Source: an uncultured Propionibacteriaceae bacterium (lineage in GTDB: Bacteria; Actinomycetota; Actinomycetes; Propionibacteriales; Propionibacteriaceae). Taken from it: DNA of 14,353 bases. The notes under the pieces were generated by a model that saw only the letters and a program-made list of their open reading frames with translations, was not told where the DNA came from and did no database searches. Made by a program: the position numbers and the translations under genes. The stretch covers positions 1 to 14,353 of the forward strand of contig CAKZJI010000236.1 of assembly GCA_936941515.1 (NCBI GenBank). The letters run 5' to 3'. This document shows, in pieces, positions 1 through 14,353 of this stretch. How positions within the stretch are numbered: the first letter of the stretch is position 1; every line of letters starts with the position of its first letter.

Positions 1-2
1 GC

Positions 3-446
3 TGGCAGTATGCGCGGCACATGGACGATCCCGAACCCTACCCGAGCCAGGGCATGCGCGGCCCCGTCGTGTTCGTCACGAATCCGTATGCGGGATCGGA
101 CGGTGACATCGTGACAGCGGCAGCCCAGAATCTGAACCTCGGTCCCGTGGTGGGGGAGCGCAGCTGGGGTGGTGTGATCGGCATCGACGGCCGTTTCGAC
201 CTGGTGGATGGCACCAGCGTCACCCAGCCCCGCTATGGCTTCGCCTTCTACCGGCAGGGGTTTGATGTGGAGAACCACGGCACGGATCCAGACATTGAGG
301 TGCCGCTGGATCCGCAGGACTGGGAGTCGGGGGATGATCTCCAGCTGGATGTCGCGGTCTCGGAGGCCCTGGCCCGGCTGAAGGACACCCCAGCCGCCGT
401 CGCTCCCGAGCTGCCGCCTCCCGCCTGGGGTGCGTCGGAGGAATAG
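3..446 (+). CDS. Tricorn-type S41 serine peptidase, C-terminal end (5' truncated by window)
   Basis: Only the last 147 or so codons are visible; the frame is open back to base 3, so the Met codon at 21 is internal and the true start lies outside the window. The fragment is the end of the S41/tricorn catalytic core. A GSDGD motif (bases 93-107) carries the nucleophilic Ser, and a V-E-N-H-G motif 58 residues later carries a Glu. The same 58-residue spacing separates Ser965 and Glu1023 of tricorn protease, so the second half of the active site looks intact. GPVVGERSWGG is the usual family segment between them. Tricorn-core proteases are large cytosolic enzymes (about 1,000 residues) that trim peptides released by upstream proteolysis. 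The C-terminus is a short Pro/Ala-rich tail. The gene converges on valS. A shorter C-terminal processing peptidase is less likely given the motif spacing. Confidence 0.85.
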   Translation, partial: WQYARHMDDPEPYPSQGMRGPVVFVTNPYAGSDGDIVTAAAQNLNLGPVVGERSWGGVIGIDGRFDLVDGTSVTQPRYGFAFYRQGFDVENHGTDPDIEVPLDPQDWESGDDLQLDVAVSEALARLKDTPAAVAPELPPPAWGASEE

Positions 447-471
447 CGGTATCCGACGGGTTTGCCAGAGA

Positions 472-505
472 CCGGGGCCGGGGCCTCTGCGACTCCCGAC
501 CCCGG
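472..505. terminator. GC-rich hairpin between convergent S41 peptidase and valS genes
   Basis: An 11-bp inverted repeat (472-482 with 495-505) with a 12-nt loop starts 6 bases beyond the valS stop. On the plus strand it has one C-A mismatch; on the minus strand the same position is a G-U wobble, so the hairpin should be more stable in the valS transcript. There is no clear U-tract on either side, as is common for actinobacterial terminators. Confidence 0.55.
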
Positions 506-510
506 GCAGG

Positions 511-3069
511 TCATCTCGCCGGGGCCTCGCCTAGTTCGGTCTCGACTGCGAGCGGACCTTCGGCAACCACCCAGTGGAGGTCGCCTGTGATCCGTCCCAC
601 GGCCCGCAGATCCGGTTCGATGGCCTTCAGACGCTCCAGCGCCGCGTGGTCGCCGCGGAACTCGGCCCGCAGCACCGGGGTCTTCATGGACACCTTCGCC
701 TCGGACTTCGCGCCGCGGATCGAGATCAGGACCGAAGCCACGTCGGTGATCAGCTGGCGCACCCCGTCGCTCTCCACCTCAGCGACGGTGGGCCAGGGAG
801 CTGTGTGGATCGAGGAGCCGTGAGTCCAGGACCAGGTCTCCTCCGTCACGAACGGCAGGAACGGGGCGAACAGCCGGAGCTGCACGTCGAGGGCGATGGC
901 CAGGGCGGCCTGCGCCGAGGTCTGGGCCTCAGGTCCCTGCGCGCCGTAGGCCCGCTCCTTGACCAGCTCCAGGTAGTCATCGCAGAAAGACCAGAAGAAG
1001 GACTCCGCAGCCTCAAGGGCCTGGGTGTAGTCGAAGGAGTCGAAGGCCTCGGTGCAGGTGCGCACCACATCGGACAGTGAGGCCAGGAGGGCTTGGTCCA
1101 CGGGATTCGTGACGGCGCTCCGCTGCCCGGGGTCTGGGGCGAGGCTGAGCACGAACTTGCCGGCGTTGAGGAGCTTCATCGCCAACCTGCGCCCCACCTT
1201 CATCTGCGTCTCGTCGAACGGGGAGTCCAGGCCAGGCCTGGCCATCGCCGCCCGCCAGCGCACCGCGTCGGAGCCGTACTTGTTGAGGATCTCGGTGGGC
1301 ACCACGACGTTGCCCTTGGACTTCGACATCTTCTTGCGGTCGGGATCGACCACGAACCCGGAGATCGTTGCCCGCCGCCACGGCAGCGAGTCGTTCTCGA
1401 AGTTCGCGCGCACGATGCGTGAGAACAGCCAGGTGCGGATGATGTCATGGGCCTGTGGGGCGATGTCCATGGGGAAGGTCAGGTCGAACAGCTCCTGGTC
1501 TACACCCCAGCCGCAGGCGATCTGCGGGGTCAGCGACGATGTGGCCCAGGTGTCCATCACATCTGGATCGGCGATGAACCCGCCGGCCTGGCCACGCTGT
1601 GACTCGTCGTAGCCGGGTGGGCATGCCGTCACCGGGTCGATCGGCAGGCTGGCCTCATCCGCGATGATCAGCGCGTCGTAGTCCGGATCCCCGTCGGCGT
1701 CCAGGGGATACCACACGGGGAATGGGACCCCGAAGAACCGCTGCCTGGAGATCAGCCAGTCCCCATTCAGGCCACCCACCCAGTTCTCGTAGCGGTGCCG
1801 CATGTGGTCCGGTGTCCAGGCCAGCTCCTCGCCGCGCCTGATGAGCTGGGCCTTGAGGCTCTCATCGCGCCCGCCGTTGGAGATGTACCACTGGCGGGTC
1901 GCGACGATCTCCAACGGCTTGTCCCCACGCTCGTAGAAGTTGACCGGCCGGGAGATTGGCGTGGGCTCGCCGTCGAGATCACCTGAGTCCCTGAGAAGCT
2001 CAACCATCGCCGCTCGGGCGGAGAAGGCCGTCTTGCCCGCCAGATGCTCGTAGGGTGCGGCGTTGACCAGCCAGTCGGGAGTCTCACGCTGTAACCTGCC
2101 GTCGCGCCCGATGACGGTGCGCGTCGGCAGCTCCAGCTCCCGCCACCACTGCACGTCGGTGAGGTCGCCGAAGGTGCAGCACATGGCGATGCCCGCGCCT
2201 TTGTCGGGCTCGGCTGCGGGATGGGCCAGGACTGGGATCTCCACACCGAAAACTGGGGAGGTCACGGTGGTGCCGAACAGCCTCTGGTATCGCTCATCGT
2301 CGGGGTGGGCGATCAGCGCGCAGACGCTGGGCAGCAGCTCTGGGCGTGTGGTCTCGATGTGGACGGGGCCGTCGGCGCCGTGGAAGGCGAGGCGATGGTA
2401 GGCGCCCGCGTGGTCGCGGGACTCCAGCTCCGCCTGGGCGACAGCGGTCTGATAGGTGACATCCCACATGGTGGGGGCATACGACAGGTATGCCTCACCG
2501 CGGGCCACGTTGCGCACAAACGCCCGCTGGGCGACTGCCTGCGTGGCTGGCGCGATGGTGTTGTACAGGGTGTCCCAGTCGATGGACAGGCCGAGATAGC
2601 GCCACAGATCCTCAAAGACCTGCTCGTCGATGGCCGTCAGCTGCTCGCAGAGTTCGATGAAGTTTCGGCGGGAGATGGGGATCTGCCGTTTCGGATCGGG
2701 TTTTGCGGGCGGGGTGAAGTCTGGCTCATAGGGAAGTGACGGGTCGCAGCGCACGCCGTAGTAGTTCTGGACGCGCCGCTCCGTCGGCAGGCCGTTGTCG
2801 TCCCATCCCATGGGGTAGAACACCTGCTTTCCCCGCATCCGCTGGTACCGGGCGATGGTGTCGGTGTGCGTGTAGCTGAACACGTGGCCCACGTGCAGTG
2901 ATCCCGAGACCGTCGGCGGGGGGGTGTCGATGGAGAACACCTGGTCTCTGGACTCCGGACGCTGGAAGGCATAGATCCTGTCCTCGCGCCACACCTGACC
3001 CCATTTGCCCTCAAGGCCTTCGAGAGCGGGTTTGGTGGGCAGGCCGGAGTTGTAGGCAGGGTTCGTCAT
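511..3069 (-). CDS. valS: Valine--tRNA ligase, alternate (alt_ValS-like) form
   Basis: Cytosolic class I aminoacyl-tRNA synthetase that charges tRNA-Val and edits misactivated threonine. The 852-residue protein has the HIGH-type signature HVGH at residues 59-62 after PPPTVSGS, the Val/Ile/Leu-type [13 protein letters not shown] segment, an inserted CP1 editing domain around residues 215-400 including the family THRPE-like segment as TTRPE, and the KMSKS loop at 580-584. It is followed by the anticodon-binding helical domain. The C-terminus lacks the long coiled-coil arm of E. coli-type ValS, and the '[15 protein letters not shown]' and 'YGVRCDP' stretches resemble the separate alternate ValS family known in actinobacteria; that subfamily call is from memory. 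ATG at 3067-3069 is used; no Shine-Dalgarno is visible, but a TACGAT -10-like hexamer lies 8 bases upstream, suggesting a leaderless mRNA. It is separated from the upstream dsbA-like gene by a terminator. Confidence 0.96.
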
Positions 3070-3077
3070 GGAACGGA

Positions 3078-3083
3078 ATCGTA
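3078..3083 (-). promoter_or_regulatory. Candidate -10 element for leaderless valS transcript
   Basis: TACGAT (TAnnnT consensus) on the minus strand ends 8 bases before the valS ATG. With no ribosome binding site present, transcription would start at or next to the ATG. No convincing -35 box is seen. Position and hexamer are seen; promoter function is inferred. Confidence 0.4.
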
Positions 3084-3118
3084 GTTGGCTGTGCCGAGAT
3101 GCGTCGAATAGGGCACAT

Positions 3119-3152
3119 CCCGGGGCCTGGGGTGTCTCTCCCAGGCCCCGGG
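3119..3152 (-). terminator. Perfect 13-bp inverted repeat downstream of dsbA-like gene
   Basis: CCCGGGGCCTGGG at 3119-3131 is exactly complementary to 3140-3152, with an 8-nt loop. It starts 8 bases after the stop of the minus-strand dsbA-like gene and lies 49 bases before the valS start. It lacks a U-tract but is very stable, so it probably ends the doxX-dsbA transcript and separates it from valS. Confidence 0.7.
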
Positions 3153-3160
3153 GCTGCCTC

Positions 3161-3967
3161 TCAGCTGCCCGAGTCGGCAGTCTGCTGAATGGCTGACATC
3201 AGGCTGTCAGGGTTGTTGGGGGTGACAAGGGGCTTTTGGGTTTGCGGGTCAACGAATTTGAGGTCCTTGCCGTTAACTCGGTAGGTGGGGGTGGAGGTCA
3301 CCCCGGCCTCTCCCATCGCCTTGTTGGAGCGCTCAATGAAACCCTCGTAGGTCTTTTGCTCATAGAGCTTCTTGAACGTCTCCAGGTCCTCCCCGGTGAT
3401 CCCGGCTTGCTCTGCGAAATCTCCGGTCAGCTGCTCGTCGGTGTAGCCGACGCCCTCTTGAGGCTGATTCTTGAAGACGGCTGCATGGTATTCACGGTAT
3501 TTGCCCACCTGATCGGCGGCGGCGGCGGCCATCGCGGCGCGGCTAGATGACTTCTGGTTGCCGTTGCGGTTGACGTCGTTCAGGAAGTGGGCTGTCCGCA
3601 CCTCGAAGGTGATTTTGCCCTCGTCGATGAGCTTCAGGAACGCCTCCCCGTATGACTTCTCGTAGGCGGCGCACCCAGGGCACTGGTAGTCCTCGTAGGC
3701 CACCACGTGCGGCACCGTGCCCTCTGGCTTCGTTCCGGTGCTGTTGATGGTAATGCCAGCCTCCTGCGTCGCATTGGGGGGAGTCTCCTGTGATGCCTGG
3801 CTGCGACTCCACCACTGGTAGAAGACAACTGACACGATCGCCAAGGCGATCACACTGACCACGCTCAGGCCGATGACCATCATCTTCTTGGCGCGTTTCC
3901 TCTGCTCCTCCAGCTCCTGCTGCTTGCGCAATGCGGCGCGCTTGCTGAGATTTGAATTGTTGGCCAT
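3161..3967 (-). CDS. Membrane-anchored DsbA-like thiol-disulfide oxidoreductase (Thioredoxin_4 type)
   Basis: A 268-residue protein with a basic cytoplasmic N-terminus (K/R-rich, residues 9-28), one membrane segment (about 29-51) and an extracytoplasmic thioredoxin/DsbA-fold domain. The redox motif is CPGC at 96-99, set in YEDYQCPGC, which is typical of the DsbA-like Thioredoxin_4 family. The cis-proline loop is TSTPTYR with Pro227. A helical insert separates motif and cis-Pro loop, as in DsbA. It likely introduces or shuffles disulfides in exported proteins, with the active site outside the membrane. ATG at 3965-3967; an AAGGAG sits 15 bases upstream, embedded in the last codons of the preceding doxX-like gene 12 bases away, so the two are probably co-transcribed and coupled. 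The neighbouring DCGCFG membrane protein is a plausible redox partner. The exact partner and direction (oxidase versus isomerase) cannot be told from sequence. Confidence 0.9.
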
Positions 3968-3979
3968 GGGTTTACTTGC

Positions 3980-4543
3980 TCACTCCTTGATGTCCGCAGT
4001 CGCGGAGTCCTCAGCGATGACGGGATCGTCGTCGCTCTGGTCGTCTAAACGTACAGGAGAACCGAAAAGTGCCTGCTCCAGGCTGAAAACGGATCGAGGG
4101 CGCACCATGAGCCACAAGCACAGAGCCGACATCCCGACGTTTTCGGCGATCTTCAGTGGGTACTGCGTCTGCTCGGCCGACACCTCGCCTCCGGTTCCGA
4201 AGCAGCCGCAGTCGATGTTGATGCCGTTGGACCACACCCAGGTGATGCCGAAGATGAAGGCCAGCAGCATCATCAGCGTCGCTGCGGCCGCCCAGCGGGT
4301 GAACAGCCCGACGATGAGAAGCAGCCCGACCGCGATCTCAATGACGGGGAGAATGTAGGACAGCAGCTCCGAGATTTCCCAGCTGAGAAGCTGATATGCG
4401 CGGATATTGTGGGCGAAGCTGTCGGTGGCCACCACTTTCACGGCTCCCGCGTAGAGGAAGACCACGCCGACGATGAGGCGGGCGGCGAGCCCGACCCAGT
4501 CGGGCCAAGACCGCAGTGATGGGTGAGAGGGCCTGTCGTTCAC
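3980..4543 (-). CDS. MauE/DoxX-family redox-associated membrane protein
   Basis: A 187-residue integral membrane protein with about four hydrophobic segments (roughly 18-38, 60-80, 85-105, 131-148) and an acidic cytosolic-type tail. The stretch after the third segment is DCGCFG (111-116; Cys112 and Cys114), the hallmark of the MauE branch of the DoxX/MauE superfamily, named for a methylamine dehydrogenase maturation protein thought to help disulfide formation. No methylamine genes are present, so a general role is more likely: passing electrons between the adjacent DsbA-like protein and the membrane, in the way DsbB or VKOR does elsewhere. That role is inference from the Cys pair and the gene pairing. 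Start is GTG (4541-4543), chosen because an AGGA lies about 8 bases upstream; it is divergent from folC across a short shared intergenic region. Confidence 0.87.
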   Translation of the reverse strand: MNDRPSHPSLRSWPDWVGLAARLIVGVVFLYAGAVKVVATDSFAHNIRAYQLLSWEISELLSYILPVIEIAVGLLLIVGLFTRWAAAATLMMLLAFIFGITWVWSNGINIDCGCFGTGGEVSAEQTQYPLKIAENVGMSALCLWLMVRPRSVFSLEQALFGSPVRLDDQSDDDPVIAEDSATADIKE

Positions 4544-4581
4544 CCGTTCATCCTAACCGGCGCGCGCCCCCGCACAACCTT

Positions 4582-4587
4582 TACCAT
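4582..4587 (+). promoter_or_regulatory. Candidate -10 element for folC in the doxX/folC divergent region
   Basis: TACCAT (TAnnnT) ends 10 bases before the proposed folC ATG at 4598. There is no ribosome binding site between them, so the mRNA may be leaderless or nearly so. The whole divergent intergenic region is only 54 bases and must hold both promoters. No clear -35 box was found. Confidence 0.35.
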
Positions 4588-4597
4588 TGGCTGCATC

Positions 4598-5944
4598 ATG
4601 GACTATTCCGAATTGGTTTCCCAGTTGACTGCGCGTTGGCCTGAGCATCGCATCGGCCGCAGCCTCAGCCGGGTCAGCGCCCTGATGGAGCTGCTCGGCA
4701 ACCCTGAGCAGGCCACCCCTGTGATCCAGGTCGCAGGCACCAACGGCAAGGGCTCGACCTGCATCATGATCGATGCCCTGCTGCGCGCCGCAGGGCTGCG
4801 AACCGGTCGTTTCTCCAGCCCACATCTCAGCGATGTGAGAGAGCGCATCTCCATCGACGGGGAGCCGATCTCCCGGGAACACCTCACGGAAACCTGGCGT
4901 GAGATCGAGCCTTTCGTGAAGATGATCGACGATCAGCAGCTGGATGGCATCGACATGACCTTCTTCGAGGTCATCACTGCCATGGCCTACGCGGCGTTCG
5001 CCGACGCGCCGGTAGACGTCGCCGTGATGGAGGTCGGGCTGGGTGGAGGCTGGGATGCCACGTCCGTCGCCTCTGCGCAGGTGGCTGTCGTCGCACCCAT
5101 CGGGTCAGACCACACTCATATCCTGGGGAGCTCCCTGGCTGAGATCGCGGCCGAGAAGGCCGGGATCATCAAGGAGGGCTCCACGGCGGTGCTGGCTGGC
5201 CAGGATCCCGAGGCGGCTCGGCAGCTGCTTGCGCGGGCCGTCGAGGTGGGTGCCGTCGTGAAGGCCGAGGGACCGGACTTCGGCCTGCTGGAGCGGCAGC
5301 CTGCCGTCGGGGGGCAGCTCATCAGGATCCAGACCGCAGGTGGCCCTGTCGGTGACATCCTCCTGCCCCTGCACGGCGCCCACATGGCGCGCAACGCGGC
5401 CCTCGCCGTCGCCGCCGTCGAGGCCTTCCTTGGCGGGCAGCCCCTGGCCCCCGAGATCATCGTTGAGGGCTTGGCCTCCGTGGTGGCGCCAGCCCGCCTG
5501 GAACTCGCCAGGACCTCACCCGCGATCGTGCTGGACACCGCCCACAACCCCCAGGCCGCTCGCGCCACCATCGAGGCATGCCAGGAGGCCTTCGCATTCC
5601 AGCCACTGATCGGTGTGGTGGCGATGATGCGTGACAAGGACATCCCGGGTGTGCTAGAGACCTTCGCCTCAGCGATGGACCAGGTGATCATCACCCGCGC
5701 CGCGTCCACGCCACGGGCGATCGCCGTCGACGAGCTGGCCGCAGCCGCGGAGGAGATCTGGCCCGCTGGGCAGGTGCTGCAGGCTCAGACGATGGCCGAC
5801 GCCCTGGAACTGGCAACCCTCCTGGCCGATGCCGCAGGGCCGACGGCAGGAATTCTCGTGGCGGGATCGCTGATCGCCGCGGGGGAGGCCCGGGACCTGC
5901 TGTCCCGTGAAGAACATGAGGAAGCTGAAGAACCGCAACCGTAA
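4598..5944 (+). CDS. folC: Bifunctional folylpolyglutamate synthase / dihydrofolate synthase
   Basis: A 448-residue Mur-ligase-family cytosolic enzyme that joins glutamate to dihydropteroate and adds further glutamates to folates using ATP. Visible in order: P-loop AGTNGKGST (46-54); SSPHL (73-77) and the following RERI, the folate/Mg region; TFFEVITAMA (121-130); MEVGLGGGWDATSV (144-157), with Glu146; the GSDH motif with His172; and the AEKAGIIKEG segment with Lys187, the usual carbamylated lysine. Further on are AHMARNAAL (261-269) and DTAHNP (313-318) of the glutamate-ligase domain. Length is normal. The frame is open back to an ATG at 4523, but the upstream part overlaps the divergent doxX-like gene and has no family similarity, so 4598 is preferred. 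The stop codon overlaps the ribosome binding site of ndk; the two form an operon. Confidence 0.95.
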   Translation: MDYSELVSQLTARWPEHRIGRSLSRVSALMELLGNPEQATPVIQVAGTNGKGSTCIMIDALLRAAGLRTGRFSSPHLSDVRERISIDGEPISREHLTETWREIEPFVKMIDDQQLDGIDMTFFEVITAMAYAAFADAPVDVAVMEVGLGGGWDATSVASAQVAVVAPIGSDHTHILGSSLAEIAAEKAGIIKEGSTAVLAGQDPEAARQLLARAVEVGAVVKAEGPDFGLLERQPAVGGQLIRIQTAGGPVGDILLPLHGAHMARNAALAVAAVEAFLGGQPLAPEIIVEGLASVVAPARLELARTSPAIVLDTAHNPQAARATIEACQEAFAFQPLIGVVAMMRDKDIPGVLETFASAMDQVIITRAASTPRAIAVDELAAAAEEIWPAGQVLQAQTMADALELATLLADAAGPTAGILVAGSLIAAGEARDLLSREEHEEAEEPQP

Positions 5945-5948
5945 GGAG
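5943..5948 (+). promoter_or_regulatory. Strong Shine-Dalgarno AAGGAG for ndk, overlapping folC stop
   Basis: AAGGAG begins inside the folC TAA and ends 5 bases before the ndk ATG. The arrangement fixes the ndk start and suggests translational coupling with folC. Confidence 0.8.
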
Positions 5949-5953
5949 AAGCC

Positions 5954-6364
5954 ATGAGGCAGCGCACCCTGGTGCTCATCAAACCCGACGCCGTCGCCGC
6001 TGGGAACGCAGGCCGGATCCTCAGCCGCTACGAGGACGCCGGGTTCCGCTTCGAGGCCATGGAGCTGCGAACCATCGACGATGCCATGGCCGAGCGTCAC
6101 TATGCGGAGCACGTGCAGCGTGACTTCTACCCAGGGCTGCGGGACTTCATCACCAGCGGTCCCTTGCTGGCTGTCGTGCTGAGTGGCGACGACGTCATAG
6201 CCGGGGTGAGGGCACTGCACGGCGCCACTGATCCCGCCGCAGCGGAGTCGGGGACCATCCGCGCTGACTTCGCGGAGTCGGTGCGTCGCAACGCCGTCCA
6301 CGCCTCCGACTCGCCTTCCTCAGCCGAGGCTGAGATCGCCCTCTGGTTCCCGGAAAGCCGCTGA
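5954..6364 (+). CDS. ndk: Nucleoside diphosphate kinase
   Basis: A 136-residue cytosolic enzyme that transfers the gamma-phosphate of ATP to NDPs through a phosphohistidine. It starts with the family TLVLIKPDAV strand (Lys10). GTIRADF (100-106) is the nucleotide-binding GTIRGDF motif with Ala replacing Gly, and NAVHASDS (113-120) holds the phosphorylated His116; SSAEAEI follows as in the family. Length is typical. It lies 9 bases after folC with a near-perfect ribosome binding site, and its stop is only 6 bases from the end of the convergent ClC gene, leaving no room for a separate terminator. Both genes of the folC-ndk pair serve nucleotide and one-carbon supply. In many actinobacteria rne follows this pair; here the ClC gene lies between. 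Confidence 0.97.
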   Translation: MRQRTLVLIKPDAVAAGNAGRILSRYEDAGFRFEAMELRTIDDAMAERHYAEHVQRDFYPGLRDFITSGPLLAVVLSGDDVIAGVRALHGATDPAAAESGTIRADFAESVRRNAVHASDSPSSAEAEIALWFPESR

Positions 6365-6370
6365 GCTCCC

Positions 6371-7699
6371 TCAGCGACTGGCCTTTGAGGCTGCTACGCG
6401 GGCATTGCGCCTGACTGCTCGCGCGGAGCGGGCTGAGAGGGCATCGTAGAGAGGCCTGTCACGCAGGGCCGTCGCCACCAGCATCGCGATGGCGCAGGCC
6501 CCCAGCATCGGGGGAAGCTGATTCGCCGCGCCTGTCATCTCGGTCACGAGCACGATCCCGGTCAGTGGAGCCCGCACTGTGGCGGTGAAGAAGGCGGCCA
6601 TGCCGATGAGCGCCAGGGCGGCGGGCTCCGGAGCCCATCCGGGTGCGACGGCTTGACCCAGCAGGCCGGTCAGCAGACCCAGCTGGCTGCCGAGCACCAG
6701 CATGGGTGCGAATAATCCCCCAGGGGTGGCCGCCGTGTAGGACACGACTCCCAGCACGAAACGGACGGAGAGGATGCCCAGCGCCGTGAGAATGCCTCCC
6801 GTGGCGAGAAGCGCCTCCTGCGTCAGGGCATCACCCCCGCCGATGAGCCCAGGCGCGGAGAACCCCACAGCTGCGATCCCGCCGCCGACGATGGCGGCCC
6901 ATACCTCACGGGGTAGGGGATTGATGGCTGCCAGGTCTTGGCCCAGCAGCACGCTCTTGTTGTAGAGCACACCCAGCAGCCCGGCCACGATGCCCAAGAC
7001 CAGCACTCCCGGGGCATGCGACAGCTGCGGCTCTGCGAGCGGCCCCACCTGGAACATCTGCTCCGTGCCGCCAGTCAGCAGGGAGGAGCTGGCGAATCCC
7101 GCGGCTGATGCCAGCAGGGTCGCCACGGTGGTGCGGAGCTGAAAACGCCGCAGCAGCTCCTCCAGGACGAAGACACCACCGGCGATGGGGGCGTTGAATG
7201 CTGTCGCGAGGCCGGCTGCCGCCCCCGCGGCGACCAGCACCCTCAGATCGTCGGCGTTGCGGTGGGTGAGGCGGCTGACGATGATGCCGATGTTGCCGCC
7301 CATCTGCACAGAGGGGCCCTCCCTGCCCAGTGCGAGCCCAGCCCCCATCGACAGAAGGCCGCCGATGTACTTGACCGGCAGGATCCGGGGACTGCCGGGT
7401 GGGATCCTGCCCTCCACGACAGCCTCGACGCGGGGGATGCCGCTGCCCTCGGTGTGTGGCTCGATCCGGTGCACCAGGGCAGCCGCGAGCGCTGCCGCTG
7501 TGGCGCAGATGATGACTGCGAGCAGCAGCCCGAGCCAGGAATTGCCCTGGGCCAGGATCAGGAGACGGACACGCGCATCCGAGACGCTGTCCAAGGCCAG
7601 GCGAAAGGAGGCTGCCATGAGTCCCGTGAGGGTGCCGACGAGCGCAGCGGTGGCGGCGAAACCCACCAGGGTGCCCGAGGACTCGTCTTGCGTCGGCAT
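6371..7699 (-). CDS. ClC-family chloride/proton antiporter
   Basis: A 442-residue polytopic membrane protein with the three ClC selectivity signatures: GSGIP (85-89), GREGP (125-129) with the gating Glu127, and GGLFAP (327-332). Both glutamates of EcClC are represented: the external gating Glu and the internal proton Glu, here Glu181 in FVLEELLRR, so it should be a 2 Cl-/1 H+ exchanger rather than a passive channel. A Tyr in RPLYDAL near the C-terminus fits the conserved chloride-coordinating tyrosine. There is no CBS domain, as in short bacterial ClCs. ATG at 7697-7699 is used; no good ribosome binding site is visible, so the start is less sure than the identity. The gene converges on ndk and is divergent from the RNase E-type frame across 402 bases. 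Likely role: acid resistance or anion balance (inference). Confidence 0.93.
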   Translation of the reverse strand: MPTQDESSGTLVGFAATAALVGTLTGLMAASFRLALDSVSDARVRLLILAQGNSWLGLLLAVIICATAAALAAALVHRIEPHTEGSGIPRVEAVVEGRIPPGSPRILPVKYIGGLLSMGAGLALGREGPSVQMGGNIGIIVSRLTHRNADDLRVLVAAGAAAGLATAFNAPIAGGVFVLEELLRRFQLRTTVATLLASAAGFASSSLLTGGTEQMFQVGPLAEPQLSHAPGVLVLGIVAGLLGVLYNKSVLLGQDLAAINPLPREVWAAIVGGGIAAVGFSAPGLIGGGDALTQEALLATGGILTALGILSVRFVLGVVSYTAATPGGLFAPMLVLGSQLGLLTGLLGQAVAPGWAPEPAALALIGMAAFFTATVRAPLTGIVLVTEMTGAANQLPPMLGACAIAMLVATALRDRPLYDALSARSARAVRRNARVAASKASR

Positions 7700-8042
7700 C
7701 GTTGATTCTGTCGGTGGCTCAGGAATGCCTCAGAGCATATCCCCGCCATCGGGGATGGCATATGTCGACCCCTACCTTCATGGATGCCGACCCGTCGGCG
7801 GCGCAGAGGACGCCCTAGTGGACAGCTCACACCAGCCGTTCGCGTCATCCGGTGGTATACGCCGTGACGTCTTTGTGGCCATCTGGGCGCCGAATTGCGC
7901 ACTCACGGTTGAACCTGTGGAACAATGGCCTTGGGTCAAGCACCGCCGGTGCCGCCGAGAGGCTGCCCGGGGCTGAACGCCGCGACGATGAACTCGACCG
8001 CGGCCACCCCGGACCTCCTCGGTTGACCATTCAGTCTTATTC

Positions 8043-8085
8043 GGGAGCAGCCCGCTGCTCCCTGAACCTGAGGCGCGAACGCGCC
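8043..8085 (+). promoter_or_regulatory. Two adjacent stem-loops in the 5' leader of the rne-type start
   Basis: GGGAGCAG (8043-8050) pairs perfectly with CTGCTCCC (8055-8062) around a 4-nt loop. GGCGCG (8072-8077) pairs with CGCGCC (8080-8085), better drawn as a 5-bp stem with a GAAC tetraloop. The second hairpin ends 4 bases before the ribosome binding site. RNase E controls its own mRNA through leader stem-loops in enterobacteria; a similar role here is only an analogy. Confidence 0.45.
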
Positions 8086-8089
8086 CAAC

Positions 8090-8095
8090 GAGGAG
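8090..8095 (+). promoter_or_regulatory. Shine-Dalgarno GAGGAG for the 8102 start
   Basis: GAGGAG lies 6 bases before the ATG at 8102 and supports that start for the RNase E-type N-terminus. Confidence 0.75.
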
Positions 8096-8101
8096 TCTTG
8101 A

Positions 8102-8824
8102 ATGACCGATGCCACCCAGCCCGGGAATGCGCTGCCCGAACTGCCGCCCCGGCCACGAGTCCACCAGCTCGCGAAGCACCTGGGGACAACAAGCAGGGAA
8201 CTGCTCACTGAACTTGCGGACCTGGGACATGCGCTGAGCAGTGCCTCCTCCGTCGTCGCCGCCGAGGTCGTTGAGCAGGTCCTGGCCCGGCGCTCTTCCG
8301 CTGAGGCTGCGCAGGACGATGCCGACGAGGGAGCCAAGACGCCGTCGCCACAGGCCCCGGAACCGGAGCCCACCGCATCCGAAGCCGAGCCCGTTGCCGA
8401 ACAGTCCGTGCCGCGTCGCCGCCGCCGGGCGGCGTCCCGGCCTGCCGGGCCTCCCGTTGAGGTGGAGGCGCACGTCGAGGCTTCCGTCACCACGGTCGCA
8501 GCCGGTCCAGGCGATGGAGCGGCCGCTCCCGTGGAGAGGCAAGACGCTGCCCCCAAGCCGCGCCGCCATCGCAGGGCGACCCGCGCCGCAGGCGGTCCCA
8601 CCGTCATCGCCGAGAACCCGCCAGCGGAGCCAGAGGTCCCTGAGACTGTGGAGCCTGAAGCGCCCACGCCCTCCGCGCCGCAGGCTGAGATGCCCGCTCC
8701 CAGGCCTCGTCGCCGCCGTGCGACTCGCTCCGCCGGGGCCGCCAAGCCCGCAGAGGGCGCCGACCCGGTTTCTGCGGCTGCCGTCGACACCACCGCCGAG
8801 GCCGCCCGCACCCCGGCCACCCGG
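8102..8824 (+). pseudogene. rne: rne remnant: N-terminal regulatory part of ribonuclease E only
   Basis: Residues 19-64 (VHQLAKHLGTTSRELL onwards) match the small helical domain found at the start of IF-2 and of actinobacterial RNase E. Three Arg-rich repeats of the form RRRR-A-(A/T)-R-x-AG occur at about 104-117, 152-165 and 201-214, spaced 48-49 residues, within an acidic Pro/Glu-rich linker, typical of the disordered RNA- or partner-binding region of RNase E in this phylum. The S1 and RNase H/DNase I-like catalytic domains are missing. IF-2 itself was considered, but the folC-ndk neighbourhood and the repeats favour rne. Confidence 0.7.
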
Positions 8825-10807
8825 TCGGCCCCGTTCGTCGTCACCAAGGTGGAGTCCAAGCCGTATACCCGCCGCCCCTACGCTCCCTTCCGCACCACGA
8901 CCCTGCAACAGGAGGCAGGTCGCAAGCTTGGCTTCACTTCCCAGCGCACCATGTCGGTGGCCCAGAATCTCTACGAGGGTGGCTACATCACTTACATGCG
9001 TACCGACTCGGTGGCCCTGTCCCAGGAAGCCATTCATGCTGCCCGTAGCCAGGCTGCCGAACTCTATGGTTCCGACCACATCCCGGACAAACCGCGTATC
9101 TACACCTCGAAGGTGAAAAACGCCCAAGAAGCCCACGAGGCCATCCGTCCTGCCGGTGAGCACTTCCGCACCCCCGCTGAGACCGGCCTGACCGGCGACG
9201 AGTTCAAGCTTTACGAGCTGGTCTGGATGCGGACCCTCGCCTCCCAGATGGCCGATGCCAAGGGCGAGACTCTTTCAGTGATTATCGACGCCACTCCGGC
9301 CTCGCCGGTGAGCCTGCCCGACGGTGACGTCACCACCGTCACCTTCACCGCATCTGGGCGCACCATCACCTTCCACGGCTTCCTGCGCGCTTACGTCGAG
9401 TCTGTCGACGAAGGAGCCTCCGATGACGCCCAGAAACGTCTGCCTCAGTTATCGCAGGGGCAGGACGTAGATCCGCGCGAGGTGGCAGCCAACGGGCACG
9501 ACACCCGCCCGCCGGCCCGCTACACCGAGCCCAGCTTGGTGGCGAAGCTGGAGGAGCTAGAGATCGGCCGCCCGTCGACCTACGCGTCTATCATCCGCAC
9601 TATCACCAGCCGCGACTACGTCTTTAAGAAAGGTTCGGCCTTGGTGCCGACCTGGCTCGCCTTTGCCGTCACAAGGTTGTTAGAGGAGCACTTTTCCAAC
9701 CTTGTCGACTACCAGTTTACCGCTGACATGGAGGAAACCCTCGACCAGATAGCCCGTGGCAATGCTGATCGGGTGGCAGTGCTTTCAGCCTTCTACTTCG
9801 GTCAGACGAAATCCGACGACGGTGACGTCCCAACCCCCACGGAGGGCCACGAGGGTCTGCACCAGCTCGTCACTGAGCTCGGCGACATCGACGCGCGTAC
9901 GATCTGCACCTTCCCGCTCGAGGACTCTAGCGTCGTTGTCCGGGTGGGTCGCTACGGCACCTACGTCGAGGATTCCGGGGGCAACCGGGCCAACGTCGAT
10001 GACGCTCTGCCCCCCGACGAGCTCACCGTCGAGGCCGCCAAGGAGCTGCTGGCAAGCCCGAACGGCCAGGATCGCGAGCTCGGTCTGGATCCGCACAGCC
10101 ATCGCCCGATCGTGGCCCGTAGCGGTCGCTTCGGCCCTTACGTCACTGAGGCCCTTGACGACGACGAGGCCACTGAGATCGTCGAGACGACGACCAAGGA
10201 CGGCAAGAAGCGTCGCACCAAGCGCAAGGTGAAGCCGCGCACCGCCAGCTTGTTCAGATCGATGAGCCTTGAGACTGTCACCCTTGACGAGGCCCTCAAG
10301 CTGCTCTCGCTGCCCCGGGTGGTTGGGACGGCCGCCGATGGCACCGAGATCACGGCCCAGAATGGTCGCTACGGCCCATATCTCAAGAAGGGAACCGACT
10401 CGCGCTCCTTAAGCAGTGAAGACGAGATCTTCTCCATCACCCTGGAGCAGGCTGAGGCTGTGTATGCCCAGCCCAAGCAGCGAGGCCGTGCCGCGGCTAA
10501 ACCGCCGCTGCGCGAACTCGGTGAGGATCCGACATCGGGGCGCCCGATCGTCGTCAAAGATGGGCGTTTCGGCCCCTACGTCACTGACGGCCAGACCAAC
10601 GCCACCCTCCGCAAGGGCGACTCGGTCAAGGACATCACCCCCGAGCGTGCCCAGGAATTGCTGGCCGAGAAGAGGGCTAAGAGCCCAACCACGAAGAAAA
10701 CGACGAAGAAGACGACCGCTCGCAAGACCACCACCAAGAAGTCGACGGCGACCTCGAAGTCCGCGAAGAAGGCCAAGACGATCGCAAAAACCTCGACGGA
10801 AGGCTGA
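8102..10807 (+). CDS. topA: Chimeric frame: RNase E N-terminus fused to TOPRIM-less DNA topoisomerase I
   Basis: A single 901-codon frame with two unrelated parts. Residues 1 to about 241 are an actinobacterial RNase E N-terminus: an IF-2-N-like helical domain (19-64) and an Arg/Pro/Ala/Glu-rich region. From about Ala243 the sequence is topoisomerase IA: VESKPYTRR (250-258), TLQQEAGRKL, ITYMRTDS with active-site Tyr298 and Arg300, KVKNAQEAHEAIRPAG, GRPSTYASII (489-498), four C-terminal GR(F/Y)G-type repeats (Gly616, 675, 755, 821) and a Lys/Thr tail (857-901). The TOPRIM domain with its catalytic Glu and DxD residues, roughly the first 270 residues of TopA, is absent, as is all of the RNase E catalytic domain. 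As written the product could not be a normal topoisomerase or RNase. Likely an assembly or rearrangement joint; a natural fusion is less likely. The ribosome binding site GAGGAG supports the start; the next gene begins 1 base after the stop. Confidence 0.85.
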   Translation: MTDATQPGNALPELPPRPRVHQLAKHLGTTSRELLTELADLGHALSSASSVVAAEVVEQVLARRSSAEAAQDDADEGAKTPSPQAPEPEPTASEAEPVAEQSVPRRRRRAASRPAGPPVEVEAHVEASVTTVAAGPGDGAAAPVERQDAAPKPRRHRRATRAAGGPTVIAENPPAEPEVPETVEPEAPTPSAPQAEMPAPRPRRRRATRSAGAAKPAEGADPVSAAAVDTTAEAARTPATRSAPFVVTKVESKPYTRRPYAPFRTTTLQQEAGRKLGFTSQRTMSVAQNLYEGGYITYMRTDSVALSQEAIHAARSQAAELYGSDHIPDKPRIYTSKVKNAQEAHEAIRPAGEHFRTPAETGLTGDEFKLYELVWMRTLASQMADAKGETLSVIIDATPASPVSLPDGDVTTVTFTASGRTITFHGFLRAYVESVDEGASDDAQKRLPQLSQGQDVDPREVAANGHDTRPPARYTEPSLVAKLEELEIGRPSTYASIIRTITSRDYVFKKGSALVPTWLAFAVTRLLEEHFSNLVDYQFTADMEETLDQIARGNADRVAVLSAFYFGQTKSDDGDVPTPTEGHEGLHQLVTELGDIDARTICTFPLEDSSVVVRVGRYGTYVEDSGGNRANVDDALPPDELTVEAAKELLASPNGQDRELGLDPHSHRPIVARSGRFGPYVTEALDDDEATEIVETTTKDGKKRRTKRKVKPRTASLFRSMSLETVTLDEALKLLSLPRVVGTAADGTEITAQNGRYGPYLKKGTDSRSLSSEDEIFSITLEQAEAVYAQPKQRGRAAAKPPLRELGEDPTSGRPIVVKDGRFGPYVTDGQTNATLRKGDSVKDITPERAQELLAEKRAKSPTTKKTTKKTTARKTTTKKSTATSKSAKKAKTIAKTSTEG
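8825..10807 (+). pseudogene. topA: topA remnant: DNA topoisomerase I lacking TOPRIM domain
   Basis: About 660 residues of the type IA topoisomerase, from the strand just after the first CAP region to the natural C-terminus. The central gate domains and cleavage tyrosine are intact with no frameshift or stop, which argues against long-standing decay. The C-terminal zinc-free repeats and Lys/Thr tail match the actinobacterial type that binds DNA for processive relaxation. TopA is normally essential in actinobacteria, so an intact copy must exist in the source genome. The 5' limit is approximate: the joint could be anywhere between about 8790 and 8835. Confidence 0.75.
10798..10803 (+). promoter_or_regulatory. 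Shine-Dalgarno GGAAGG for the CYTH-CHAD-like gene
   Basis: GGAAGG lies inside the end of topA, 5 bases before ATG 10809, and selects that start over more upstream in-frame codons. Confidence 0.6.
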
Positions 10808-10808
10808 G

Positions 10809-12296
10809 ATGATGACGGCGGGGCGTTCGGGCAGCACCGAACCGTTGTACTTCGAATTGGCGTGGACGGCTGCTCGGCCGGTTCCAGTCGATCTACGCAC
10901 TACCGTCGCGACTGTCGGAGCTTGTCGGACCATCGAGTGCGAGGTTACCTTGCTGGACTCGTCGGACCACCGGCTGCTGAGGTCAGGGATCGTTGTCGCC
11001 CACCGCGTCGTGGATGGGCTGGGGGAGTGGTACATGGACGCTCCCGAATGGTCCCCGTGGCTACCGGTGGCCCGGTCAGTAGCCCTCGACGCCGCCGGCG
11101 AACTGCCGGAAGACTTTGCCTGCCTGGCCCGTCCCTTCTTGCGCGGGGCGACCCTCTGCCCTGTCGCAGCCCTGTCCTGGGAGCGCAACGAGACGGTCTT
11201 GGAAGCCCCTAACTCCACTAAACTTGCCCTCATCCGCGACGACCGCATTGCTGTCGTCCAGTCAGGGGTGACAACATCGCGGGTTCGCGAGTTGACGATC
11301 ATCCCACGACAGGGTCTCACTGAGGGTCAGCGGGAGTGGCTCACCCTCCGCATCCTGGCTCTTGGGGCTGTGCCAGTCTCCCGACATCCTTCAGTTTTGC
11401 GACGTCTCGGCCCGGGGGCTGGCGCGCTCACCGACTACCCGCGTCCGCTTCTTCGTGATGATGCCGGGGTACAGACGTGGGTATCGGCTCAGCTGGCCGG
11501 GCAATTGCGGGACGTTATCGAGGCCGATCTGGCAGCGCGTTGCCAGGGGATGGATTTAGGCCTCACCGAGACTAAGCGGACGGAGCCGCGTGTTCTTCCG
11601 GAGTCCCCAGATCGCACTGGTCCTGTGGGGATGGGCTATGACCCGGTGACGGCGTCAGCCCCCAGTATCCACGACAGGAATCACGGATCTATTCGGCCGG
11701 TTCAGAAGGCGATTCGGACGCTGTTGGAGGCCCTGGACGCAATGTCGGGTCTGCTCGATCAGGCCTGGGTTGGACGTGCCCAGAACTTGTGCTTGCGGGT
11801 GATGGATCTGAATCCCAGCCGCGTCAGCATTCATAACCTTTCTCGGGAGTATTACCAGTTACTCGAGGAGGTCACGGCGGCGGTGCGGTCCCCGCGTCTC
11901 ACTGTTGATCCTGATCAACCTGCTCGTCCTACCATGAAGTGCATGCTTCGAGAGTCGGTCGCTGATGCAGTGGCCAAGTGTGATGACGTAAAGGGTTTGC
12001 AGGGATGGTCGACAGCTGAGGTTGCAGTTCGTCACGCCGCAGCGGTCGCCGGAATCCTCGACACTGGTCGCGCCGGTAAGGTGGCCAAGCGGCTGCGACC
12101 CGTTGTCAAGGAGATAGCGCGGACTAAGCGCAGGGTAACTGAGGTTGTTGACGTCTCGGAGATGTCTCCTCAGGAAGCTTTTGATGCGGGCCGCGAGGTA
12201 GAACGTGCCTGGGCATCGTTGTCTGTGGCCCGACAGTCGTTTAGGGAGGACTGGCCACAGCATCGCCGCAAGATTCTTAAGGCTATCCATGACTGA
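10809..12296 (+). CDS. Degenerate CYTH-CHAD-like protein (putative polyphosphate-related)
   Basis: A 495-residue soluble protein. Residues about 10-205 follow the layout of a CYTH (triphosphate tunnel) domain: a 'LLDSSDHRLLRSGIVVAHR' stretch (48-66) like the family 'YDTPDxRLxxxGxxLRxR', then W-Y-x-D-x-P, a 'FLRGATLCPVAAL' stretch (110-122), 'ALIRDDRIAVV' (140-150), RELTI and a final LRRLG (198-201). The N-terminal ExExK motif is not recognisable (only YFELAWT), so catalysis is doubtful. Residues about 220-480 are helical; 'HAAAVAGILDTGRAGKVAKR' (409-428) followed by RPVVKEIARTK resembles the second half of CHAD domains, but the usual CHAD histidines are mostly lost. CYTH and CHAD domains handle inorganic polyphosphate. 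The ATG at 10809 is 1 base after the topA stop with GGAAGG upstream. Its end overlaps tmk by 8 bases, so it belongs to the topA-tmk-holB operon. Family assignment rests on pattern, not on a search. Confidence 0.6.
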   Translation: MMTAGRSGSTEPLYFELAWTAARPVPVDLRTTVATVGACRTIECEVTLLDSSDHRLLRSGIVVAHRVVDGLGEWYMDAPEWSPWLPVARSVALDAAGELPEDFACLARPFLRGATLCPVAALSWERNETVLEAPNSTKLALIRDDRIAVVQSGVTTSRVRELTIIPRQGLTEGQREWLTLRILALGAVPVSRHPSVLRRLGPGAGALTDYPRPLLRDDAGVQTWVSAQLAGQLRDVIEADLAARCQGMDLGLTETKRTEPRVLPESPDRTGPVGMGYDPVTASAPSIHDRNHGSIRPVQKAIRTLLEALDAMSGLLDQAWVGRAQNLCLRVMDLNPSRVSIHNLSREYYQLLEEVTAAVRSPRLTVDPDQPARPTMKCMLRESVADAVAKCDDVKGLQGWSTAEVAVRHAAAVAGILDTGRAGKVAKRLRPVVKEIARTKRRVTEVVDVSEMSPQEAFDAGREVERAWASLSVARQSFREDWPQHRRKILKAIHD

Positions 12297-12936
12297 CCGG
12301 CAGACAATGACCGGCTGTGATCTGGGCGGAGTATTCGTTGTTCTCGAGGGCGGGGACGGTGCTGGTAAGACGACCCAGTCCCGACTGCTTGACCAGTGGT
12401 TGACGGCCGAGGGAGTCCCCCACCTGATGACTCGTGAGCCCGGAGATTCCTGGCTTGGACAGCGGATCCGCGAACTAGTGCTTTCTCCTGATTCGGGACC
12501 GATCTGCTCGCGCGCCGAGGCGTTGCTGTACAACGCCGACAAGGCCCAACACGTTGATGAGGTTGTCATTCCGGCCCTGCGAGAGGGCAGGGTCGTCGTC
12601 TGTGACCGTTACGTTGATTCGACTATCGCCTATCAGGGGGCTGGTAGGGTCCTCGACCCTAACGAGGTCGCCCAGCTCGCAAGCTGGGCGACGGTCGGCC
12701 TGGTACCTGATGTGACCGTTCTGCTCGACGTCGACCCCTGCGAAGGTACTGCCAAGATCGCCGCCAAGGATCGTCTGGAAGCTGCTGGTGACGAGTTTCA
12801 CCTTCGGGTGCGTCAGCATTTCCTTAGCCTCGCTGCGGCCCACCCACAGCGATACCTCGTGCTCAACGCGCGGAAGACTCGCGAGGAGATCAGCGAAGCC
12901 ATCTGTCACCGGGTAGCTGGTCTACTCAACCGGTGA
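12289..12936 (+). CDS. tmk: Thymidylate kinase (dTMP kinase)
   Basis: A 215-residue cytosolic P-loop kinase that phosphorylates dTMP to dTDP for DNA synthesis. P-loop EGGDGAGKTT at 20-29; TREPGD segment for dTMP binding (family REPG); CDRYVDSTIAYQGAGR, the DRY magnesium and substrate motif; VTVLLDVDP before the LID region; and DRLEAAGDEFHLRVRQ, the conserved DR-E-x-x-x-x-x-FH-x-RVR helix. The LID has few arginines and a KIAAKDR sequence, and the DRY region carries the bulk of the basic residues near the active site. The start at 12289 overlaps the previous gene (ATGACTGA) with TAAGG 6 bases upstream, so translation is probably coupled; a second in-frame ATG at 12307 is a less likely start. 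holB follows after 46 bases. Confidence 0.95.
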   Translation: MTDRQTMTGCDLGGVFVVLEGGDGAGKTTQSRLLDQWLTAEGVPHLMTREPGDSWLGQRIRELVLSPDSGPICSRAEALLYNADKAQHVDEVVIPALREGRVVVCDRYVDSTIAYQGAGRVLDPNEVAQLASWATVGLVPDVTVLLDVDPCEGTAKIAAKDRLEAAGDEFHLRVRQHFLSLAAAHPQRYLVLNARKTREEISEAICHRVAGLLNR

Positions 12937-12947
12937 GGAATCAACTT

Positions 12948-12973
12948 GTTGCAGTGTCGGGCTGATCTGCAAC
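12948..12973 (+). promoter_or_regulatory. Small inverted repeat in the tmk-holB gap
   Basis: GTTGCA (12948-12953) pairs with TGCAAC (12968-12973) over a 14-nt loop and ends 9 bases before the holB GTG. The gap has no ribosome binding site, so the structure might help or limit initiation, but a 6-bp stem is weak evidence. Confidence 0.25.
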
Positions 12974-12982
12974 GATGATGGT

Positions 12983-14188
12983 GTGAGTGATGTGTTGACC
13001 GGCGTGTGGGCCGAGCTCGTGGGCCAAGAGAAGGCTGTCGAGGTGCTACGTCGTGCCGTCGAGTCACAGCCGAAGCGCTCCTCCCATGCCATGAGTCACG
13101 CATGGCTCATTACGGGCCCGCCCGGATCGGGTCGGTCGAATGCCGCGAAGTCCTTTGCAGCTGCCCTACAATGCGTCGACCACGGATGCGGCCGGTGCAA
13201 TGCGTGTCGAACCGCCTTGTCGGGAGCCCATCCAGACGTGACTTTAGTGCGTACCGAGGCACTGTCTATCGGCGTCGACGAGGTGCGCGAACTGGTCCGT
13301 CGAGCGGCGATGAATCCGGTCCATGGGCGTCACCAGGTTGTCGTCGTCGAAGATGCCGACCGCATCACTGAACGCGGGGGTGACGCCCTGCTCAAAGCCA
13401 TCGAGGAGCCTGCGCCGAAAACCGTCTGGCTGCTGTGTGCCCCTACTCCCGAGGACGTCATCGTTACAATCAGGTCGAGGTGTCGGCGCCTCCATTTGGC
13501 TACGCCGCGTGACGAGGCTGTGGCAGATTTGCTCACCTGCCGTGACGGCATTGCCCCGGAAGTCGCTGCTGAAGCTGTTCGCGCTGGTCAAGGTCACATT
13601 GGACGGGCGCGGCGCCTGGCCTGGGACGAGGAGGCTCGCACTCGACGCAACGCTATCGGTGAGCTCCCCACTCGGTTGCGGAGCTTGGGGGACTGTCTGC
13701 AAGCAGCCGAAGACCTCGTCACTCAGGCTCGTGAGGAAGCCGCAGCTGCTACCGCCGAGGTTGATGCGGCCGAGCGGGCCGACCTGGAGAAGGCCTTGGG
13801 ATTTGGTTCCTCTGGTGCTCGACCGCGCAATGCTCAAGCTGCTATCCGGGACCTTGAAAAACAGCAATCCGCGCGGTTGAAACGGTTACAGCGCGACGCC
13901 TTGGACCGCGTATTAACCGAGTTGACGGCCTACCATCGTGACGTGTTGGCTATCCAAATCGGAGCGGTGCGTCTTGAGGAGAACGCATTACGAGGAGCTC
14001 GCCTTGTCAATTCGGGCTGGTCGGCGTCGCTTCATCGGGTCGCAGATTCGCAGAATCCTGAACACACCGTTGCCACAATCGATGCGATCCTGGAGGCGCG
14101 CAAGAGCCTGGAACATGGCGTGGCCCCGTTGCTCGTGATGGAAACCCTCCTGATTGCCATGACCGGAGCAGACCATGCACGGTGGTGA
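12983..14188 (+). CDS. holB: DNA polymerase III subunit delta'
   Basis: A 401-residue AAA+ clamp-loader subunit acting with the DnaX and delta proteins to load the sliding clamp. Walker A is GPPGSGRS (45-52), with Arg51 where ATP-hydrolysing loaders have Lys; this fits delta', which does not need ATPase activity. A zinc-binding cluster is Cys64, Cys69, Cys72 and Cys75. VVVVEDADRI (119-128) is the Walker B equivalent, and IRSRCRRL (163-170) holds the SRC motif that serves as arginine finger. The C-terminal 180 residues are helical with an Ala/Glu-rich charged stretch (about 245-300), the collar domain. Start GTG at 12983 is chosen by fit to the family N-terminus (WAELVGQEKAV); there is no ribosome binding site. 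Pairing with tmk is common in actinobacteria. Confidence 0.93.
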   Translation: MSDVLTGVWAELVGQEKAVEVLRRAVESQPKRSSHAMSHAWLITGPPGSGRSNAAKSFAAALQCVDHGCGRCNACRTALSGAHPDVTLVRTEALSIGVDEVRELVRRAAMNPVHGRHQVVVVEDADRITERGGDALLKAIEEPAPKTVWLLCAPTPEDVIVTIRSRCRRLHLATPRDEAVADLLTCRDGIAPEVAAEAVRAGQGHIGRARRLAWDEEARTRRNAIGELPTRLRSLGDCLQAAEDLVTQAREEAAAATAEVDAAERADLEKALGFGSSGARPRNAQAAIRDLEKQQSARLKRLQRDALDRVLTELTAYHRDVLAIQIGAVRLEENALRGARLVNSGWSASLHRVADSQNPEHTVATIDAILEARKSLEHGVAPLLVMETLLIAMTGADHARW

Positions 14189-14319
14189 ATCCCCCTGCCA
14201 AGGCATGACGAAGTGAATAACAACGGTGTGTTGCGCCGCTGGGGCAGCGAGTTTCGTGGCACAGTGTGAATGTGCCGTGCCGTATCCTCGGTGCGGTCCC
14301 CAAGTCGTGAGGATTGAGC
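14189..14319. other. Intergenic region after holB
   Basis: 131 bases without a gene. A short inverted repeat GGCACA (14258-14263) and TGTGCC (14271-14276) is the only structure seen; it has no U-tract. A TATCCT hexamer at 14283-14288 fits a -10 box for the next gene, without a recognisable -35. Confidence 0.35.
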
Positions 14320-14353
14320 GTGAGCAAGGCGATCAAGAGGACTGCAGCGGACT
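14320..14353 (+). CDS. Start of an unidentified gene (3' truncated by window)
   Basis: GTG at 14320 has a GAGGA ribosome binding site (14309-14313) 6 bases upstream and opens a frame of 11 visible codons (start-SKAIKRTAAD). The Lys/Arg-rich beginning could be the basic part of a signal peptide, but too little is visible to name a product. The start call is inferred from the ribosome binding site alone. Confidence 0.5.
   Translation, partial: MSKAIKRTAAD

Follow-up and report, generated by a model that had tools for sequence, protein, structure and literature searches.

The window (the whole stretch of 14,353 nt that was analyzed) contained one frame of 901 codons, open at positions 8102–10807 (+), that ran without a stop codon from the N-terminus of an RNase E (Rne) into a topoisomerase I, as the initial annotation had described. 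Its Pfam matches were IF2_N at residues 19–61 (24.8 bits, just below the cut-off of 25.3 bits), Topoisom_bac (PF01131) at residues 230–561, where the profile (411 positions) was matched only from position 92, and Toprim_C_rpt repeats toward the C-terminus. The TOPRIM domain (PF01751), by which a functional topoisomerase IA is recognized, was absent from these matches, as was the catalytic domain PF10150, by which an RNase E/G is recognized. The earlier proposal that both domains are missing from the frame was thus borne out.

By DNA matches and Pfam names, bases 1–8800 carried the end of an S41 peptidase gene, valS, genes for DsbA-like and MauE/DoxX-like proteins, folC, ndk, a ClC channel gene, and the 5′ part of rne. 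The channel gene, of the ClC chloride type, was located at 6371–7699 (−), between ndk and rne. The rne part (8102–8800, +; residues 1–233) comprised an IF-2-N-like start and a linker rich in Ala, Pro, and Arg, and was cut before the catalytic part. It was followed by 26 joint bases (8801–8826, +). Bases 8827–14353 carried the 3′ part of topA without its TOPRIM part (8827–10807, +), an open frame without a Pfam match, tmk, and a DNA polymerase III delta′-type gene. The open frame without a Pfam match (626 codons, 10416–12296, +) overlapped the end of topA in another frame and extended to tmk; the later part of this frame may represent a genuine gene of Cutibacterium modestum, the species to which this side was traced.

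From base 8827 to its end (5,527 bases), the window was 100% identical to C. modestum M12 (L004), apart from one extra 336-base tandem copy in M12. Two pieces, 8827–13183 and 12844–14353, matched M12 contig NZ_BJEN01000002.1 without mismatch or gap; they overlapped because a 336-base unit that occurs once in the window is exactly duplicated in tandem in M12. This duplication (L004 14029–14700, corresponding to 12844–13179 of the window) spans the end of tmk and the start of the delta′-type gene, and the difference in copy number reflects either a strain difference or an assembly difference. The other eight of the nine Cutibacterium genomes compared had their main match to 8827–12300 at 75–87% identity, the next closest species reaching 87%. 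Upstream in M12, topA extends to a frame of 923 residues.

The same nine genomes matched bases 1–8826 only in pieces. In C. modestum (G001), there were only four, at 66–71% identity: valS (71%, on C4), folC (66%, on C1), and two short ones (71% and 69%, on C4). The N-terminal part of rne had only a weak protein match of 40% in C. modestum, located inside its own rne frame. Some match to 7600–8850, in most cases a short GC-rich piece, was found in 75 of 197 family genomes taken from a larger group; the best match was that of G186 (72% over 729 bases, 7905–8633). Matches to 4583–8100 were found at E ≤ 1e-30 in 38 of the 39 genomes of g28, the genus to which G186 belongs, and the best-scoring of these were from G186 (77% over 1,771 query bases, 4583–6353), G037 (75%), and G159 (79% over 1,277 query bases, 4634–5910). 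The distance between the folC and rne matches was approximately 2.8 kb greater in G186 than in the window. The valS protein was at most 86% identical to any of its 120 listed relatives; the closest named one among those listed was from a metagenome-assembled genome of Arachnia propionica (83%), with other Propionibacteriaceae and Tessaracoccus next. One protein from another record (P0121) was 100% identical to the ClC protein of the window, and that record may represent the same species as the left parent.

Judged by these sequence comparisons, bases 1–8800 belong to a Propionibacteriaceae species other than C. modestum, so that one contig holds the DNA of two species: the right side is 100% C. 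modestum, whereas the left side resembles it only in pieces of 66–71% and has its nearest relatives in another genus. The C. modestum genome contained 27% of the sampled words of the window, compared with 38.5% expected from the right-side share of its length; this shortfall is probably a matter of sampling. Composition was considered as further evidence for two sides and was dropped, given that GC3 did not separate the genes cleanly (0.76–0.87 in the left genes, 0.79 in the topA part, and 0.64–0.67 in tmk and the delta′-type gene). A chimera of two related genomes had been ranked first in the initial annotation; the two sides did prove to come from two species, and their relatedness holds at the level of the family (Propionibacteriaceae) alone.

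Whole versions of both genes were found elsewhere by sequence search. The first 233 residues of the frame were 98% identical to P0001, an actinobacterial RNase E of 875 aa (Rne/Rng family, with an IF2_N-like start) for which PF10150 is listed; beyond residue 233 the two diverge, and everything that follows in P0001, PF10150 included, is lacking in the window. The 659 residues of the C-terminal part were 100% identical to P0021, a TopA of 905 aa that includes TOPRIM. Compared with the TopA of C. modestum, a bacterial topoisomerase I with PF01751, PF01131, and PF13368, the window is identical from Ala265 to the end and lacks residues 1–264, which contain TOPRIM. In C. modestum itself, rne (a frame of 887 aa) is on C1 and topA on C2. 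We found rne in all three g28 genomes searched for it (G186, G071, and G159; the G071 match was split in two within a single frame) and topA in all five searched for it (these three, G037, and G134), the match in G037 containing one stop codon. In every one of the four genomes searched for both (G001, G186, G071, and G159), the two genes occupied separate locations: they were approximately 878 kb apart on the single contig of G159, approximately 1.47 Mb apart on C1 of G071, and on different contigs in G186.

The presence of both genes in each of these four genomes would be in keeping with a rearrangement or duplication joint formed inside one genome, a reading that the initial annotation had placed second. 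The difference in species between the sides contradicts it, and a duplication joint was therefore rejected, unless one genome carried both kinds of DNA; we regard this origin as highly improbable. Within the window itself, no direct repeats of at least 20 bases were found (14-base seeds).

No second example of the fusion was found. The 120 listed proteins were the best of the 4,300 that reached E ≤ 0.001 when 7,996 candidates were scored, and none of them contained both halves (29 matched the N-terminal part only and 91 the C-terminal part only); any protein with both halves should have appeared near the top of this list. The fusion was also absent from the 80 genome loci kept out of 580 confirmed, all 80 of which matched only from residue 155 or later, and a narrow literature search found no paper on an RNase E–topoisomerase fusion. 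A true fusion protein had been proposed as the third possibility. As a long-standing functional gene, whose RNase E linker would bring the topoisomerase fragment to RNA, it has the open frame alone in its favor. The same 120 proteins and 80 loci speak against it, as does the TopA part, whose DNA has not diverged from that of C. modestum, and we consider a fusion of this kind so improbable as to be negligible.

The position of the joint could be refined. The last point of agreement with P0001 was Glu233, at base 8800. Exact identity to C. modestum topA started at base 8827, after a mismatch at base 8826, and the first full TopA codon was Ala243 of the frame, equivalent to Ala265 of the 923-residue frame of C. 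modestum; the start at about Ala243 given for the topoisomerase part by the initial annotation was therefore accurate. On this alignment evidence, the breakpoint falls inside 8801–8827.

The bases at 8801–8826 fitted neither the P0001 protein nor C. modestum topA, the two parent sequences compared. As a pattern, these 26 bases had no match with up to three mismatches in G001, G186, G037, G071, or G159, and a 32-base pattern spanning the joint was found in no stretch of the viral_contigs set. The last 23 of the 26 bases had four matches with two to four mismatches in the fetched loci, and five matches with six to seven mismatches within the window. The closest look-alike of the joint was a 36-base stretch (8789–8824, 92% identity) in locus L098 of genome G061 (E = 4.8e-7 for G061), which runs antisense inside a frame that resembles recN. 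It was rejected as the source of the joint. Because 12 of the matched bases belong to confirmed rne, and because the same GC-rich query stretch matches briefly in many genomes, the likeness is probably due to chance; a template switch is conceivable. The 26 bases may be filler. Alternatively, since P0001 comes from a related strain, they may represent a variant of the linker in the left strain.

It had been suggested that RNase E linkers and topA, both being GC-rich, were alike enough to be joined. In the comparison made, that with the C. modestum side alone, the window and C. modestum shared nothing immediately before 8827. A join made by an assembler through a shared word is consequently not demonstrable here, and a molecule joined during library preparation or amplification is equally possible.

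That the frame continues across the joint is weak evidence of anything. The chance of an in-frame joint is one in three, and the first stop in the other two frames occurred at codon 314 or 337 (72 or 95 codons past the joint), so that the open frame needs no explanation of its own.

The abrupt breakpoint, the short unmatched stretch, and the lack of visible homology, as in end-joining, together with the frame open across the joint, would also suit a recent horizontal transfer. In such an event, a C. modestum chromosome segment of at least 5.5 kb would have entered rne of an undescribed Propionibacteriaceae cell by illegitimate recombination, with a filler of approximately 26 bases and an in-frame rne–topA fusion as the result. 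However, identity of 100% over 5.5 kb would make the event very recent, and it would have broken rne, which is a housekeeping gene. The fused protein would lack both the RNase E catalytic domain and TOPRIM, and no second example exists among the 120 listed proteins or the 80 kept loci. Such a transfer is very improbable, although somewhat less so than a joint formed inside one genome, and a fusion in a living cell is, overall, very unlikely.

We consider it highly probable that the joint is an artificial junction of the DNA of two bacterial species, made either by a (meta)genome assembler or as a chimeric DNA molecule, which, if that was the route, would have formed in library preparation or amplification. 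Like known interspecies chimeric metagenome contigs, the window is one contig with two species, one sharp breakpoint, and gene relatives that are whole elsewhere. Unlike them, its joint has no visible shared word and includes 26 bases that fit neither of the parent sequences compared, so that it may involve a chimeric DNA molecule or variation in the left parent. These two features, the shortfall of sampled words shared with C. modestum, and the in-frame joint that a real fusion would require are the points against a chimera. Since each gene is known intact and separate from the other, the joint is almost certainly an artefact of assembly or of the library; we infer that the join was made outside a cell. 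Under an artificial junction, the 901-codon frame is not a genuine gene and serves no function in its own right.

The finding serves as a warning for GC-rich genomes, in which a false join easily stays open: here, each of the three frames remained free of stops for 72 codons or more beyond the joint. Both sides of a novel "fusion protein" must therefore be placed by species before such a claim is believed.
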